A stretch of DNA of 64,000 nucleotides from an uncultured Hoeflea sp. (GTDB lineage Bacteria; Pseudomonadota; Alphaproteobacteria; Rhizobiales; Rhizobiaceae). A program made the translations under genes and the position numbers. The notes beneath the pieces were generated by a model. It ran no database searches and had not been told where the DNA came from. It saw nothing but the letters and a program-made list of their open reading frames with translations. Numbering within the stretch: position 1 is the first letter of the stretch; each line of letters starts with the position of its first letter. Below are positions 35,907-42,112 of this stretch, piece after piece. The stretch covers positions 248,001 through 312,000 of the forward strand of contig NZ_CANMVK010000001.1 of the NCBI RefSeq assembly GCF_947501405.1, written 5' to 3'.

Positions 35907-35982
35907 AGGCCTGTAGCTCAATGGTTAGAGCCGGCGGCTCATAACCGCTTGGTTGGGGGTTCGAATCCCTCCAGGCCTACCA
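35907..35982 (+). tRNA. tRNA with anticodon CAT (Ile2 or elongator Met)
   Basis: A 76-nt cloverleaf with encoded CCA: acceptor AGGCCTG/CAGGCCT, D arm AGCTC...GAGC, anticodon stem GGCGG/CCGCT with loop CTCATAA (anticodon CAT at 35940-35942), T arm GGGGG/CCCTC with TTCGAAT. The A-U first pair and short D loop (AGCTCAATGGTTAGAGC) resemble tRNA-Ile2, which reads ATA after lysidine modification, more than initiator Met; elongator Met remains possible. The AT-rich insert begins right after it. Confidence 0.93.
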
Positions 35983-36006
35983 CTTTTCCCGGTCGCTTTG
36001 GTTGTT

Positions 36007-36112
36007 GTTTGTCACCCGGTTCTGCCAAAAGGCGGGAATATCCGGGATTAAGCGGGATGTAGTTTGTCACCCGGTTCTGCCAAAAGGCGGGAATATCCGA
36101 GAATAAGTGGGA
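36007..36112 (+). repeat. Tandem direct repeat downstream of the tRNA
   Basis: Two 51-bp copies, 36007-36057 and 36062-36112, begin GTTTGTCACCCGGTTCTGCC and differ at about four positions near the end. They start 25 bp after the tRNA CCA end and mark the left edge of the AT-rich insert. They may be remains of repeated integration events. Confidence 0.85.
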
Positions 36113-36869
36113 ATTGGCGAAAATGGCCTGAAACACAAAGGTCTAAGAGGTTCTGCACGGTAGGTAATGCCAAATCCATCTTGTCAGGAGATTTTGCACA
36201 ATGGGCAGCAAACAGGCTGTCAGACCGGATCGGACCTCGATCTTTAAATCCGCTTCAAATCGGCATCAAAACACCCCAGCAACTAAAAATTACTAGTAAT
36301 ATCAATGATGCGTGCATTTTGTAACGGCTATTAACTGGTCGGAATTTGCGCGCTGATCGGAACGAAAATCCAAACAGAACTCGGAAGTTGCTTCCAAGTT
36401 CTGTGATTTGAGGTCACCAAAATAGCCAATTCTCTTGAAAATCAATGCCTTGGTGCTTCCGAGTTCGATTCGTAGAGGGCAATCGACGGCCAGATGAACT
36501 CGGAAGTGGGAATCGAACACAAATCGAAAAATGATTGAGCTGTTGCAGCTACGGGACGAAAGTACCAAAGGGGAAATTGTTAGATAAGGGCGGGTACCGG
36601 ACCTTCATTGCAACTGCTCACAGGTTGTGTCAGTTTTCGAGAAACGGACAGGCATTCTCAGAACAGTTTCAAAGAAAACCGCAAAACGAAGCCTGAGAGA
36701 TTGGAAAAATTCTTGGCTCAGTCGCTTGGGCTAATCGCGGCTGAATAGTGCCGCAGCCTACCCGGCCGCGCCAGTATATGTGCAGCTAATTGATCCTTCT
36801 ACGCGATCCCTATTGGGTGTATCAACAATGGCAAATTCTACCATGTGTAAGCCCAAAAAGGCGATCTGT
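36113..36869. other. AT-rich left flank of the insert
   Basis: About 750 bp without a supportable gene. Base composition is visibly lower in GC than the tRNA side. No integrase gene or remnant was recognised. A promoter for the two-gene operon should lie near 36770-36860. Confidence 0.4.
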
Positions 36870-37658
36870 ATGAATATTTTCAAAGAGTATACGTTGGCAG
36901 AATATATTTCAGAACAGGGTACAAATTTTGGATCGTCCCTTCCACTTGTTCATTCTACCGAGGGTTCGAACCTGTTATCAATTCTTGGTAATGGAGTCAT
37001 AGAAACCATACCATGTGACACTTTCACTGACGAGAAACTGTCTTACTTTTTTCATGGCCGGCCATCTTACAGAAAATTTGTAAATGAACCTAAATTCTGG
37101 CAACTTCCAGTGGTGATGGTGTTTAAGAGCACCTGCCTGGTGAATAAAACAAGAATTTTTCCATTCGATTCTGGGGCCTTGTACTCCAATAGGCTGCCAA
37201 AATACATTTCTTCTTTTTCTCCGGATGGCTATCAGCTGTCTTCTAAATCAGACTGTCTGGACTTGCTAATAGATATATTTTTCGGAGATGATGCTTCGTA
37301 TTTCGCTGGCAGAGCCAAGCCTTACGACCAGGTTGTGGGGCGCAGGAAATTCGGCGTCCGCCATGCCCAAGTGGCAGCTTTGTGTTCACTCTACAACAGG
37401 GAGCAACTTGAGGCTGATGACCGCGCTCTTGCGATTGAGATCCAGACGGATCAAGACGTTCAGATCAAGGATAACTTGATCGGTGCAGTTTTGCCAAGGC
37501 CATACTATGATGATCCTGAGTTGAAGAAATATTTCAGGGAAAACCGTATTATAGTTAAACATTATGACATTTACCCCCTCTCAGTTGAAGCTTACATGTC
37601 GCTTATTTACAGTAATGTTAAAGAATTATACATGAAGTGGGGGCTCATAGGTGATTAA
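36870..37658 (+). CDS. Unrecognised AT-rich gene; possible ADP-ribosyltransferase-like fold
   Basis: A 262-residue protein that I cannot place in a named family. 'LPLVHSTEGSNLLSILGNGVI' (residues 24-44) followed by 'LSYFFHGRPSYR' (57-68) and 'ALAIEIQTD' (187-195) give an ordered His28 - Tyr59 - Glu190 pattern that recalls the H-Y-E core of DarT/diphtheria-type ADP-ribosyltransferases; this is suggestive, not established. No signal peptide or membrane helix. ATG 36870 has AAAAAGG eight bases upstream and is preferred to ATG 36780. Its last eight bases overlap the next gene. Codon use is AT-rich (ATA, TTA, AGA), unlike the neighbours, indicating transfer. Confidence 0.6.
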   Translation: MNIFKEYTLAEYISEQGTNFGSSLPLVHSTEGSNLLSILGNGVIETIPCDTFTDEKLSYFFHGRPSYRKFVNEPKFWQLPVVMVFKSTCLVNKTRIFPFDSGALYSNRLPKYISSFSPDGYQLSSKSDCLDLLIDIFFGDDASYFAGRAKPYDQVVGRRKFGVRHAQVAALCSLYNREQLEADDRALAIEIQTDQDVQIKDNLIGAVLPRPYYDDPELKKYFRENRIIVKHYDIYPLSVEAYMSLIYSNVKELYMKWGLIGD

Positions 37659-38982
37659 CAAATATGACATATTAGGCTGTATTGATTTTTGTGTGAATTC
37701 ATATGCGATATCCATGCTTGTACTTCAGCGACCGAATTCAAATTACACATACATACCGAAGACGGATCACAAATTTATAGTTATAGACTTTTATGAAGCT
37801 AGCCAAATTGAATACAAGGTGAGATATCTTTCCGAGAAGGTGACCGTGTCGCTTGGCGATAAAGTGCCTGTTCCGATTCTCGATCATGATTCTGTATATC
37901 TAGTCGATCCGGACTGGTCAGATGCAGAAATTGCGACTCAGCATCCGGGGCTTAGCACCGCGGCAAGAAAGGCATTTACTTCCTTGCGTTCGCGACTAGC
38001 CCTTAGGCCAGTGGATACGTTGCACGACGAGATTGGATACAACGTAGCTGATCTTTTGAAGCAGCCCGTGAGGTCACATTATTGGCTTTCAAGGTTGTCG
38101 GCCCTGGTGCGGTCCGCCTTTGATGGTGGCTCACCACCTGCCGAGTTGCTAGAAGCTTTCGAGTCCGCAAGGCTTCTTTGGATAGAGAGATTCGCGTCCA
38201 AGTCGTCCTTGAAAATGATTCTTAGTGCATTTCAGATTCCAAATTTGCATATGGATGAACGAGTGGCAGCTGATATCCTCGCTCGTCGTTTTGAAGATAT
38301 AGTAGTCTCAAAAGGCATCCACACGCCGCAAAATGAAATTATTCATATCATCTCGATGTTCAAGGAAGGACTAATCGCGCAAATAGAGGAGATTTCTATT
38401 GATCAATTTGATTATTGGAAACGCAAGGAGGCAATAGTTTCCTTGACAGAACTACAGGTTGAAAACCTATTTCGACGCTTCAAGTTTTTCGATGCTGATA
38501 TGAGGGGTATGGATAGCTCGCCTGGGAAATGGTCATCAGCAGAGTTGAGAAAGTATCTCGCCTATTTTCGAGCCATTGATGCGGACAACTATAACCTGAA
38601 TTCTTCCACATCTCAGTTTATATCTTTGTACGAGGCGCAAAAATTGGCAACTATCGATATTCTATCTTATTCAAACGATTGGTATTCAGCAATGATCGGA
38701 GACGGCTCAATAGAATTTATTGATAAATTGCTCCATTTTATTGATGGAAAAGATGAAGTTGAACACGGCAAAATTCTTATTCATTGGCCGAACGTAATAT
38801 CATCCGTTAAGAAGGAGTACGAAAAACTAACAATACTTGCTAGGATAGTTAATCCTGCCATAAGAAATCATGACGACGACGAAGTCGCCATCAACGGAAT
38901 TAACTACTCACTGCTGGAAGAATTGCTGCGTTCGGCGCATAATGTAGAAAAGCAATATCTAAGGCTGTCGAGGAGATCGTAG
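37651..38982 (+). CDS. Unrecognised AT-rich gene, partner of the upstream gene
   Basis: A 443-residue protein of unknown family, starting with GTG inside the end of the preceding gene (8-bp overlap GTGATTAA, 37651-37658), which implies translational coupling and a joint function. An N-terminal alpha/beta part (about 1-95) is followed by a long mostly helical part (about 120-440, rich in Leu, Glu, Lys and aromatic residues). No signal peptide, membrane helix, Walker or nuclease motif was found. Low GC and codon use match the upstream gene and differ from the chromosome. An antitoxin, immunity or co-effector role is conceivable but not shown. Confidence 0.6.
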   Translation: MINKYDILGCIDFCVNSYAISMLVLQRPNSNYTYIPKTDHKFIVIDFYEASQIEYKVRYLSEKVTVSLGDKVPVPILDHDSVYLVDPDWSDAEIATQHPGLSTAARKAFTSLRSRLALRPVDTLHDEIGYNVADLLKQPVRSHYWLSRLSALVRSAFDGGSPPAELLEAFESARLLWIERFASKSSLKMILSAFQIPNLHMDERVAADILARRFEDIVVSKGIHTPQNEIIHIISMFKEGLIAQIEEISIDQFDYWKRKEAIVSLTELQVENLFRRFKFFDADMRGMDSSPGKWSSAELRKYLAYFRAIDADNYNLNSSTSQFISLYEAQKLATIDILSYSNDWYSAMIGDGSIEFIDKLLHFIDGKDEVEHGKILIHWPNVISSVKKEYEKLTILARIVNPAIRNHDDDEVAINGINYSLLEELLRSAHNVEKQYLRLSRRS

Positions 38983-39004: not shown

Positions 39005-39745
39005 CAGATTCGGCTTACTCCGGGTCATATCCGGCCGCCTCGAAATAGTGTCTGCACTCTGCGGGCGTAAACGCTGCGAGGGAGTGGGCCACGATGGTCC
39101 AGAGGTCGTCGACGGTTCTGGCCGCTGCTTTTCTCAGAAGGGCCTTGAGCTTTGAGAAGACCATCTCAATGGGGTTGAAGTCTGGCGAGTATGGCGGAAG
39201 GAACATAAGCTGTGCGCCAACCTTCTCGATCGCCTCGCGCACGCCGCTGATCTTGTGGGATGGCAGATTATCCATGACCACGATGTCGCCAGCGCAAAGC
39301 TCAGGCGCAAGGACCTGCTCTGTATAGGCCAGGAAGGCAGTGCCGTTCATCGGGCCATCGAGGAGCATCGGTGCGGCCATGCCATTCAATCGCAGGCCAG
39401 CGGTGAAAGTGGTTGTCTTCCAGTGGCCGTGGGGCACTGCCGCCCTGCATCGCTCGCCGCGCAGGCTGCGTCCGCGCAACCGCGCCATCTTCGTGGATGC
39501 CGCAGTCTCATCAATGAAGATCAACTTCTCGGGGTCGAGATCGAGTTGGCCGTCGAACCAGGCTATGCGGCGGCGCAGGACATCGGGACGCTGCTGTTCG
39601 GCGTGACCTGCTCCCCCAAGATGTCCCTGCTTTCTGGCAGAATCCGGTGGCAAACTACGTCGATCCCCATCAAGATGGGTGACATAATTCTCGTCAGCTC
39701 CGTCCAGGTGTGAAGCTTTTTTTCGGTCGTGTCCGGTAGGTGGAT
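39005..39745 (-). mobile_element. IS630-family transposase remnant
   Basis: The catalytic half of an IS630/Tc1-mariner-type DDE transposase: '[10 protein letters not shown]' (first Asp), '[13 protein letters not shown]' (second Asp) and '[19 protein letters not shown]' (Glu). The N-terminal HTH half is missing and the frame before '[13 protein letters not shown]' is out of register with a second frame ('LHTWTELT...'), so the gene is truncated and frameshifted. Terminal inverted repeats were not found with certainty; TCTAGAGCA at 38998-39006 may be one end. It lies just after the two-gene AT-rich operon. Confidence 0.82.
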
Positions 39746-39822
39746 TGCAGTGCAAGCCTGAAGATCACAGCCATGCCCAGCCTGCTGGCGGATGTGCGGC
39801 AGCCGGCGATCGTGCCCAACGC

Positions 39823-39858
39823 AACAGGCCCGTTTCGCGGGTGCGAAACGGGCCTGTT
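39823..39858. terminator. Perfect 16-bp hairpin, likely terminator for the luxI operon
   Basis: AACAGGCCCGTTTCGC (39823-39838), GGGT loop, GCGAAACGGGCCTGTT (39843-39858), perfect complement. It lies 24 bp past the stop of the small gene after luxI, on its minus-strand downstream side. T-run is poor, so strength is uncertain. Confidence 0.7.
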
Positions 39859-39882
39859 GTCTGATTGGTGGGACCCGCGGGG

Positions 39883-40131
39883 TTAGCTGGCCTTGCGGTC
39901 TTCTGACTCCATGATGGTTTTCGCCGAGACCTGGCGGATGGCGAGATGGGTCATGGTCAGGAGATATTCGATGAACTCGAAATCCTTGGGCAGGTCGGTG
40001 CGCTCGCTTGCCAACAGCAGGTAGGCCTGCAGGTCGGAGATCTTCTCCGCGGCGGCGTCGCAAACCACCAGTGTGTCATTGGTGGCGGCGCGCAGCTTGG
40101 TGTCGCCGGACTGGACGGGATTGTGGTTCAT
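39883..40131 (-). CDS. 82-residue protein coupled to luxI
   Basis: An 82-residue, acidic, probably helical cytoplasmic protein ('LVVCDAAAEKISDLQAYLLLASERTDLPKDFEFIEYLLTMTHLAIRQVSAKTI' type sequence) of unknown family. Its ATG (40131) begins one base after the luxI stop (TGA-G-ATG), so it is translated with luxI. No domain is recognised. Its constant position after luxI suggests a role in autoinducer production or modulation, which is inference. Confidence 0.65.
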   Translation of the reverse strand: MNHNPVQSGDTKLRAATNDTLVVCDAAAEKISDLQAYLLLASERTDLPKDFEFIEYLLTMTHLAIRQVSAKTIMESEDRKAS

Positions 40132-40132
40132 C

Positions 40133-40837
40133 TCATTGCCCCACTGCATGTTTGCGATGATTTTCGAAGTAATCACCCTCGATATATGGCAAGGGCTTGA
40201 GCGGCTGGTCGCGGTTAAGCGGGTTGTTGTCGCTCGCCTCGCAATCGATCAGCCGTCCTTCGAAACGATAGAGTTCGTGCTGTTTGAGCAGTGCCCTGGG
40301 CCGTGTCTCGGCGTGAATCGGCAACACCAGGTGGCCCTTGAAATCGACCGGTGCGCTCAACGGCGTGACCTCCCAATCGGTTTCGAGCAGCAGATTGACC
40401 AGCTTGGGATGGGTTTCCACCACCAGGGCTTCGATGCCGGCCATGAGGCAGAACTCAAGCACCCCGGTGAGCAGCAGATTGGCCGCCGGCGTGCCATCGG
40501 GGCCGCGCGCATCGCGGTCGGAGACGCAGCGGGTCCATTCGTAAATCTTCGGCCCGGTCTGGTAAGGCCGGTCGCCGATGAGCTCGGGATAGACATCGGA
40601 CAACAGATGCGGCCTGGTGGTGGGCAGCAGCCGCGAATAGGCCACGACCTTGCCCTCCAGGGCTAAAACCAGATGAACAGCCTCGGTGGTGTCAAACGCA
40701 TCGATCTCGCGTCCGTCCGGTTTGCGGATCTCCTCCCAACCGTAATTGTCGACAAAATGATGGTGCCGGAACCGCCAGACTTCTTCCATCAAAGCGGTAC
40801 GCCTTAGCACTCCACTTCCCCAGATTGCTTGAAACAT
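40133..40837 (-). CDS. LuxI-family acyl-homoserine lactone synthase
   Basis: A 234-residue autoinducer synthase that joins an acyl-ACP (or CoA) chain to S-adenosylmethionine and releases an AHL. All the invariant residues of the family are in place: Arg24, Phe28, Trp34, Asp46, Asp49, Arg69, Glu100 and Arg103 (FRHHHFVDNYGW, IDAFD, YSRLLPT, YEWTR). Chain length cannot be predicted with certainty. It is preceded on the same strand by luxR (41357-42112) and followed by a coupled small gene. A weak lux-box-like dyad lies upstream at 40860-40873. Confidence 0.93.
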   Translation of the reverse strand: MFQAIWGSGVLRRTALMEEVWRFRHHHFVDNYGWEEIRKPDGREIDAFDTTEAVHLVLALEGKVVAYSRLLPTTRPHLLSDVYPELIGDRPYQTGPKIYEWTRCVSDRDARGPDGTPAANLLLTGVLEFCLMAGIEALVVETHPKLVNLLLETDWEVTPLSAPVDFKGHLVLPIHAETRPRALLKQHELYRFEGRLIDCEASDNNPLNRDQPLKPLPYIEGDYFENHRKHAVGQ

Positions 40838-40859
40838 GGCAAATCTCCCTTAAATTTGA

Positions 40860-40873
40860 CTGGATAATTACAG
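40860..40873 (-). promoter_or_regulatory. Weak lux-box-like dyad before luxI
   Basis: CTG-N8-CAG (40860-40873), 23-36 bp before the luxI start, has the half-site bases of a lux/tra box but not the full 18-20-bp symmetry. Listed as a low-confidence candidate because of position. Confidence 0.25.
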
Positions 40874-41232
40874 GGGCTGATCTTCACTTCAATGAGCGGA
40901 TCGGCCTACTGTTTTCTGCTTTCAGAGGGGAAATTTAGCCTTAAAGGTGTGGTCTGCAATTTTGGCGCGTGGAGATGGGCGCGCTGATTCGGGGCTTTCG
41001 CGAATACCCGCGCCGCGGACCTTGAGGGCGGCGTGCCGGAACTGAACCGGGCGCAGCCGGGTGGCGATCGGACCGTTCGTGATCCGAAACCGCAATCGCG
41101 TGGCCGCTCGCCTGTGAATTTACAGGCCATCCCTTGCGGGGGCCATTCACTTTATATGACCGTTTCGGCGCGGGCAGGCAGCCGCAGACGCGTTCTTGCG
41201 TGGGGAAGCGGGCTTTGAGGCCTTGTAATTGC

Positions 41233-41337
41233 TACAGCGCCGCGCATCCAATCGGATGCGCAAGGGACGCTGTAACACCTTGAAAGAATGCATGTATGTT
41301 ATCACTCGATTGAATCCAATCGAGCGCGACATGCATT
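41233..41337. repeat. Two-stem palindromic element between luxR and luxI
   Basis: Stem 1: TACAGCG (41233-41239)/CGCTGTA (41268-41274) with inner CGCATCC/GGATGCG (41243-41260). Stem 2: AATGCATGT (41287-41295)/ACATGCATT (41329-41337) with inner CTCGATTG/CAATCGAG (41305-41324). I recognise the first stem type as a short palindromic element repeated in many rhizobial genomes (recollection). It may fold in RNA; its role here is unknown. The adjacent sequence TTAGCGGATGATGC is a 14-bp direct repeat (41336-41349, 41357-41370), the second copy being the end of luxR. Confidence 0.6.
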
Positions 41338-41356
41338 AGCGGATGATGCGTGATGC

Positions 41357-42112
41357 TTAGCGGATGATGCCGGCGCGGAAGGATTCGGCGATGAGCTGGG
41401 TGCGGTTGACGGCGTTGAGCTTGCGCTGGATCTTGCCGAGCTCGTTTTGCACGGTCTTGTGCGACAGGCCAAGGATTTCGCCGATTTCCCAGTTTGTCTT
41501 GCCTGCCGCGCACCACTGGATCAGATCGAGTTCGCGCTTGGTGATGCGCAGTTCCTTGCGGTACTGCATATTACGCTCCTCTTCGCGCAGCATGCGCAGC
41601 CGGTGATGCGCGAAAACGGCGATCAGTTCCAGCGTCGAGCGGGCCTCACGGGTCAGTTCGACCTTGTGGGCGCCGAAAGTGACAATCGCCTGCAGACCAT
41701 TGATCCCCTGGATGGGCACGCTGAACCCGTCGCGCATGTCGACTTCCGTGGCCTCGTTCATCACGGTGCGCGCCGCCGGGCTCAGCCGCACGTTCTTGAG
41801 TGCTTCCGACCAGACGAAGCCATCATTTGAGGTCTTGGTGCGAAAGATCACCGGATCGATGTGAACATAATCCTGCTCGGCGTAATGATTGAACCAGTCC
41901 ATCGGCCAGTCATTGAGCAGCACGTAAGGATCGATCTTTTCATTGGGCAGGGGAATGCCGGCAATGGCGAAACTGTCCATGCCGAAGCCGACCGAGACCT
42001 CGCGCAGATATGCCATGATCTCGTCGGCGTCCGACGACGCCATGGTTCGCGTGACGAAATCAATGATGGCATTGGTGTTGAACTGTCCGTTCGGTGGTAA
42101 TGCCTGTCCCAT
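41357..42112 (-). CDS. LuxR-family AHL receptor-type regulator
   Basis: A 251-residue LuxR-type activator. The AHL-pocket residues follow exactly the TraR spacing: Trp73, Tyr77, Asp86, Trp101 and Gly129 (WFNHYAEQDYVHIDPV, FVWSEAL, RDGFSVP), so it should bind an acyl-homoserine lactone. The LuxR HTH is at about 190-250 ('ITKRELDLIQWCAAGKTNWEIGEILGLSHKTVQNELGKIQRKLN'). It lies upstream of luxI on the same strand with a 519-bp gap holding a palindromic element, and is divergent from the iron-binding-protein gene. It is very likely the cognate receptor of the LuxI. Confidence 0.9.
   Translation of the reverse strand: MGQALPPNGQFNTNAIIDFVTRTMASSDADEIMAYLREVSVGFGMDSFAIAGIPLPNEKIDPYVLLNDWPMDWFNHYAEQDYVHIDPVIFRTKTSNDGFVWSEALKNVRLSPAARTVMNEATEVDMRDGFSVPIQGINGLQAIVTFGAHKVELTREARSTLELIAVFAHHRLRMLREEERNMQYRKELRITKRELDLIQWCAAGKTNWEIGEILGLSHKTVQNELGKIQRKLNAVNRTQLIAESFRAGIIR

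Follow-up and report, generated by a model that had tools for sequence, protein, structure and literature searches.

What function is served by a gene that begins a single base after the stop codon of a quorum-signal synthase gene? The window, by which we mean the whole stretch of 64,000 nucleotides that was analysed, carries luxR, luxI and then an ORF for an 82-residue protein on its minus strand. The luxI stop codon TGA occupies 40135-40133, one G lies at 40132 and the ATG of the small gene at 40131-40129, giving a junction of GGGGCAA TGA G ATG (Table 1). A sequence-only reading of this DNA had described an 82-residue protein of no known family one base past the luxI stop; the ORF is confirmed, the interval 39883-40837 fits, and nothing in Pfam or NCBIfam rises above cut-off for the protein. 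By analogy with CinS of Rhizobium leguminosarum, we propose that it is a quorum-induced candidate antirepressor of PraR, CinS-like in its logic, a reading to which we assign a probability of roughly 0.65.

Table 1. Features of the luxR-luxI-small gene locus in the window.
Feature	Position	Strand	Basis
luxR-type regulator, 251 aa, 5' of luxI	41357-42112	minus	Pfam Autoind_bind E=1.4e-28, GerE E=1e-16
Degenerate lux-box-like element AGTAGGCCGATCCGCTCATT	40891-40910	minus	alignment column of relatives' ATAGGC..GCCTAT-type palindromes
luxI-type acyl-homoserine-lactone synthase, 234 aa	40837-40133	minus	Pfam Autoind_synth E=1.9e-16
GGGG, weak Shine-Dalgarno-like stretch within luxI end (putative)	40139-40142	minus	inference
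Stop/start junction TGA-G-ATG, luxI/small gene	40129-40135	minus	sequence
82-aa small protein gene (candidate CinS-like LuxI-coupled regulator)	40131-39883	minus	ORF
Perfect 17-bp hairpin, likely transcript end	39822-39859	minus	fold z=-5.3

Spacing of one base between genes is by itself not rare in bacterial operons. Longer in-frame starts are also present for the small gene (97 residues from a GTG, and 88 residues from an ATG that precedes the end of luxI by 17 bases), and the 82-residue start was therefore taken from homologues. Direct searches with the 82-residue protein failed to supply these: among 61 own and related genomes it found only itself, with 17 other congeneric genomes giving no match, while none of 91 candidates from GTDB contigs was confirmed and a plasmid search confirmed nothing, both of the latter collections possibly excluding the genome of origin. 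Our survey was therefore anchored on LuxI. A LuxI match was present in 82 of 151 genomes of the taxonomic family, and loci were taken for the best 30; the genome of origin has a single LuxI match. Among plasmids 483 records matched, 12 of which supplied luxI loci; scanning GTDB with an alignment of LuxI proteins confirmed 351 loci, and the best 80 were added.

Part of the surveyed luxI genes are followed by a small ORF whose product can be aligned to the window protein, and 28 of these luxI-linked proteins, with the window protein excluded, were combined into a family profile. This profile scored the window protein at 23.8 bits (E=1.8e-6 at Z=1000), a score reached by none of 1000 shuffles (best shuffle 7.9 bits); the next best of the 313 window ORFs obtained 3.1 bits. 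With its nearest relative, L049, removed from the profile, the window protein still scored 18.9, again with 0 of 1000 shuffles as good. Two separate subfamily profiles each placed it above 500 of 500 shuffles, but with weak E-values of 0.03 and 0.12. The family is loose: a profile of the R. sullae type misses L049 (200 of 500 shuffles as good) and barely finds L032 (9 of 500). Comparison of 19 members with Pfam gave four families that match one member each, the best being a TPR family at E=3.3e-4; we take the TPR and other single-member matches as helix noise. The window protein belongs to a family that carries no existing annotation, with a suggestive likeness to CinS.

A total of 121 luxI-locus rows (the window, 29 genome, 12 plasmid and 79 GTDB loci, at least six of the loci being duplicated) were scanned with the family profile; L052, whose luxI runs off the contig, was left out. 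The profile found a member in 28 rows (27 distinct loci, window included), always just 3' of luxI and on the same strand. Most of these rows had fed the profile, L043 and L067 being ones that had not, and nothing further reached E<=0.01 among the 8778 frames of the 121 rows. The 151 genomes of the taxonomic family yielded seven matches at E<=0.01: four strong ones beside luxI, three of which had supplied query rows, and three weak ones away from luxI (E 0.003-0.01), which we take as noise. By genus, the profile matches 4 of 33 genomes in that of G086, each beside luxI (a partial luxI in G086 itself), and 1 of 6 in that of G031. The luxI of the G086 locus, L192, matches only from residue 130 on (its C-terminal part), and the small gene is still present there.

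Every strong family match examined adjoins luxI. The sequence-only reading had tied the small gene to luxI and named loss of this linkage in other genomes as a refuting result; in the neighbourhoods of the homologues the linkage is kept, so this result did not occur. The tie stands from the side of the small gene, but many luxI genes do without it, 93 of the 121 rows having no family member. Together, the results support a functional tie of the small gene to the luxI system.

In 13 relatives, among them Rhizobium rhizophilum, Peteryoungia ipomoeae, R. rosettiformans and Agrobacterium albertimagni, a homologous ORF can start exactly one base past the luxI stop, with GGAG within the luxI end where the window has GGGG; most of the 13 also have longer in-frame starts. 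With starts chosen by hand, 25 of the 27 family loci have the start of the small gene between -14 and +15 bases, 14 of these loci, the window among them, at exactly +1; in the other two it falls at +341 and +344. Exact coupling to luxI is therefore common in the family and not required, and the equimolar need with LuxI that had been read from the one-base spacing finds no support. Nine of the 13 relatives gave dN/dS values of 0.05-0.30 (mean 0.16, 36 pairs), and the small gene is thus under purifying selection in these relatives. Given the homologous ORF in 13 relatives and its low dN/dS, the 82-residue ORF is no mere product of chance. A quick LuxI tree places the window LuxI in a clade of 39 rows (SH-aLRT 98), 25 of which carry the small gene, and luxR lies upstream in all 27 survey members of the family. 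The direct search found the small gene in none of the 17 other congeneric genomes sampled, and the luxR-luxI-small operon (39883-42112) may therefore be a recent arrival in this species.

Three features of the DNA bear on co-transcription: the one-base spacing, the lux-box-like element and the end hairpin. An alignment of 18 luxI upstream regions was read by eye, without a significance test; 12 relatives carry a TAGG..CCTA-type palindrome about 70 bases 5' of luxI, and a further five have a variant form. The window element falls in the same alignment column as a degenerate copy and is the only one in the window at three or fewer mismatches. Because it shares its column with the palindromes of the relatives, co-induction of luxI and the small gene by LuxR is likely. 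The hairpin starts 23 bases past the small gene, and none of 200 shuffles was equally stable; it has no U tract, and a scan for U-tract terminators gave none there. The ORF directly past this hairpin (39015-39755) encodes a DDE_3 transposase domain. Elsewhere, a tRNA-Met (35907-35982) is followed by adjacent ORFs at 36780-37658 and 37651-38982 without a Pfam match, and this part of the window (35907-38982) is possibly an island.

The AlphaFold2 model of the 82-residue protein is a two-helix hairpin (helices 8-44 and 49-81, mean pLDDT 84), and neither Pfam, NCBIfam nor this model reveals a recognised DNA-binding or catalytic domain in a protein that sits directly 3' of luxI. Foldseek with the model gave no match at E<=0.001. 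The top VIA-align Z of 10.1, to designed and generic hairpins, lies below the level of about 13 given for helical bundles, and TraM was absent among the best 50 matches listed. A PDB profile search returned a designed chlorophyll dimer protein as its best match (E=1.2e-4), which we take as generic helix similarity. A small ORF after luxI in Methylobacterium, of the kind that we call MmaP-like, is also predicted to form a two-helix hairpin; the two predicted folds are alike, yet such hairpins are common.

The analogy draws on two proteins, both co-expressed with LuxI and both binders of PraR, that excerpts of the cited papers describe. CinS of R. leguminosarum has 67 residues, and its mutation leaves cinI transcription and the CinI product unchanged while lowering RaiI, a second synthase besides CinI, and the product of RaiI (PMC3356288). 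A related arrangement, in which cinS comes behind cinR-cinI, is present in strain 3841 (PMC4992315). The antirepressor activity of CinS is given as independent of AHL, and the same excerpt reports for S. meliloti a praR ortholog and no cinS ortholog (PMC5977203). MmaP of Methylobacterium fujisawaense has 59 residues, is co-transcribed with mmaI (luxI) and binds PraR; an mmaP deletion strain still makes its AHL (PMC10790750).

For sequence comparison, we took as CinS, by size, place and species, a 67-residue ORF that overlaps luxI by 4 bases in Rhizobium sp. WYCCWR10014 and in R. leguminosarum BIHB 1148, where luxR and luxI are annotated in front of it; of 120 genomes of that genus, 51 carry copies 81-100% identical. 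An 87-residue protein 36-37 bases 3' of a CinI-type luxI in four Rhizobium genomes (L141, L142, L144, L149) was considered as CinS and dropped, CinS being 67 residues; it is found by neither the window-family nor the MmaP-like profile. The name "MmaP-like" is ours; it stands for Methylobacterium small ORFs situated behind luxI and does not denote the sequence of MmaP itself.

The family profile found CinS at E=0.013 with the window row and 0.057 without it (0 of 1000 shuffles each), and the two subfamily profiles found it poorly (18 and 432 of 1000 shuffles as good). The reverse direction was weak: a CinS profile gave the window protein 5.7 bits (E=0.82, 1 of 400 shuffles), a profile of CinS plus MmaP-like proteins did not see it (87 of 400 shuffles as good), and the MmaP-like profile gave no match to it (score -0.4, 143 of 500 shuffles as good). 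In profile-profile comparison none of 200 column shuffles reached the score of the family against CinS alone, with only 10 columns aligned, or against CinS plus MmaP-like proteins, with 38 columns. Between the two reference groups, the MmaP-like profile found CinS at E=2.4e-5, and the CinS profile, run against five MmaP-like proteins, reached a best E of 0.001 and left L036 unmatched (39 of 400 shuffles as good). Judged by these scores in both directions, CinS and the MmaP-like proteins are probably related, and CinS and the window-protein family possibly so, the latter likeness being suggestive and one-sided.

The window protein and CinS are alike in being encoded right after luxI, from a start that is coupled to it or overlaps it, in the order luxR-luxI-small, in the presence of a PraR-family gene in the genome and in a similar stretch of the FLxYLLxM type. 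They differ in length (82 residues here, 67 in CinS) and in junction (a gap of 1 base here, an overlap of 4 bases for cinS), and their LuxI proteins are very distant, CinI standing on a branch of about 5, with unsure placement, in the quick tree. MmaP resembles the window protein as a small PraR binder co-transcribed with luxI, and through the hairpin predicted for the MmaP-like ORF; however, the MmaP-like proteins have no direct sequence match to the window protein, and in the MmaP system PraR promotes swarming, contrary to what holds for the Cin system. To our knowledge, SinI-SinR of Bacillus subtilis has no coupling to a quorum synthase. It is nonetheless similar in that a small antirepressor disables an XRE-type repressor, an analogy taken from an excerpt of PMC4149787, but mimicry of the PraR C-terminal helices is unsupported for the window family: profile-profile comparison aligned 14 columns at a probability below 1%, 16 of 500 shuffles were as good, and we rejected the idea. 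For the MmaP-like proteins the likeness to the PraR C-terminus looked striking by eye, and the same comparison gave E=0.0023 and a probability of 12% (3 of 500 shuffles). BCAM1871 of Burkholderia cenocepacia is likewise co-transcribed with a luxI homologue, but it has 254 residues, alters AHL activity and, in the excerpt describing it, has no CinS homology (PMC3356288).

Which repressor would such a protein act on? Its own genome contains one PraR-family match at E<=1e-10, flanked by ORFs read as apolipoprotein N-acyltransferase on one side and metK on the other; metK is followed by a methyltransferase-like ORF. This neighbourhood (metK, methyltransferase-like ORF) matches the praR description in the excerpt of PMC10790750, and the gene is taken as the praR ortholog. 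PraR-family matches occur in 95 of 101 genomes of the order, and because they are near-universal their presence discriminates little. More telling, a praR paralog completes the order luxR-luxI-small-praR on the same strand in R. sullae, Sinorhizobium sp. B11, Rhizobium sp. T1470 (its paralog 41% identical to the PraR of the window genome), R. tumorigenes and G168. Eight plasmid records match the R. sullae protein, and five of these loci were examined (H41, which is L040, H42, H44, H46 and H48); Rhizobium sp. CB3090, the fourth examined plasmid beyond R. sullae, has no praR paralog in the examined stretch.

Among the 121 luxI-locus rows, 14 (13 distinct loci) have a PraR-like gene (at least 44 bits against the PraR of the window genome) no more than 1.2 kb 3' of luxI, where about 0.05 would be expected from 142 matches in 101 genomes, with genome size judged at about 4.2 Mb and the two counts made by different programs. 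Three of these 13 loci have the gene on the opposite strand, several are close relatives, and five belong to an Aurantimonadaceae-centred group. Within the small-protein family, 3 of the 27 loci have a PraR-like gene in the examined stretch (L015 and L040 on the same strand, L121 on the other), and the remaining 24, window included, have none there.

In the mechanism that we propose, luxI and the small gene would share an operon that LuxR, encoded upstream, switches on once signal accumulates. The small protein, a predicted two-helix hairpin without a DNA-binding domain, would then act as an output arm of quorum sensing: it would bind an XRE repressor of the PraR type, in this case the only PraR-family protein found, which is encoded at another place in the genome, and would relieve the repression exerted by it, in the way of CinS in R. 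leguminosarum; MmaP is likewise a PraR binder. Through translational coupling the level of the antirepressor would rise with that of LuxI, and a LuxI-protein complex is not implied. Co-induction, PraR binding and de-repression are the parts of this explanation that we infer.

The least unlikely of the alternatives keeps the CinS-like logic and changes the target, the small protein binding a regulator other than PraR, whether of the XRE type or not. The weak sequence link to CinS leaves room for this, as does an effect of CinS on another regulator besides PraR that is inferred in an excerpt of PMC4149787. The XRE partner genes beside luxI are, moreover, diverged paralogs. Since the genome has a single PraR-family match, however, PraR is the simplest target. 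TraM is an antiactivator of TraR, and a small all-helical protein in a LuxR-LuxI operon, with luxR upstream in the 27 survey members, might damp the circuit by acting on the adjacent LuxR in the same manner; we regard this as improbable, given that no TraM match appeared in Pfam among 19 family members at E<=0.1 and that a praR paralog stands next to the small gene in sibling operons. Most doubtful is an action on LuxI or its signal, as the modulator or stabiliser, acyl-chain supplier or exporter adapter that the sequence-only reading had envisaged: tight coupling in the window and 13 relatives and the place of every strong family match examined beside luxI would suit it, but the spacing of up to +344, the match to no enzyme family, the bare hairpin model, the recurrence of PraR-like genes beside such operons and the small gene kept in G086 beside a luxI found only from residue 130 speak against it, as do the cinS and mmaP mutants, which in the excerpts of PMC3356288 and PMC10790750 still make the signal of their own LuxI.

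Small proteins other than the window family also occupy the position behind luxI. The Aurantimonadaceae-centred group (L072, L073, L074, L006, L008) has a PraR-like HTH gene about 300 bases after luxI, and in L006, L008 and L074 an unrelated protein of 103-104 residues, seen in full for Jiella, lies between the two; that of L074 has no Pfam match. Its position is suggestive of another antirepressor lineage. Small ORFs of 77-143 residues directly follow luxI in L100 and L107 (Microvirga), L038 and L039 (Bosea), and L106 and L110 (Nitrobacter), and both Microvirga loci have a PraR-like gene nearby on the opposite strand. Tentatively, and at somewhat less than even odds, the slot behind luxI may be a general antirepressor slot in many Alphaproteobacteria, filled by diverged or unrelated small proteins that each have a PraR-family XRE partner, sometimes next door. 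Such a slot would include the window family, CinS, MmaP and the 103-residue Aurantimonadaceae protein, among others.

As described LuxI-coupled carriers of the quorum signal to an AHL-independent regulator we found two, CinS and MmaP, in mostly non-subscription literature. If the slot is indeed general, quorum sensing would routinely have an AHL-independent protein output besides LuxR, with partners switching through evolution. If the unannotated family does in rhizobia what CinS and MmaP do, at times beside PraR-like genes, luxI knockouts in many species would be polar on a second output, as an excerpt of PMC3356288 recounts for cinI knockouts and cinS, and phenotypes credited to AHL may stem from the small protein. 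The family would also offer a set of protein pairs for learning how a helical hairpin disables an XRE repressor.
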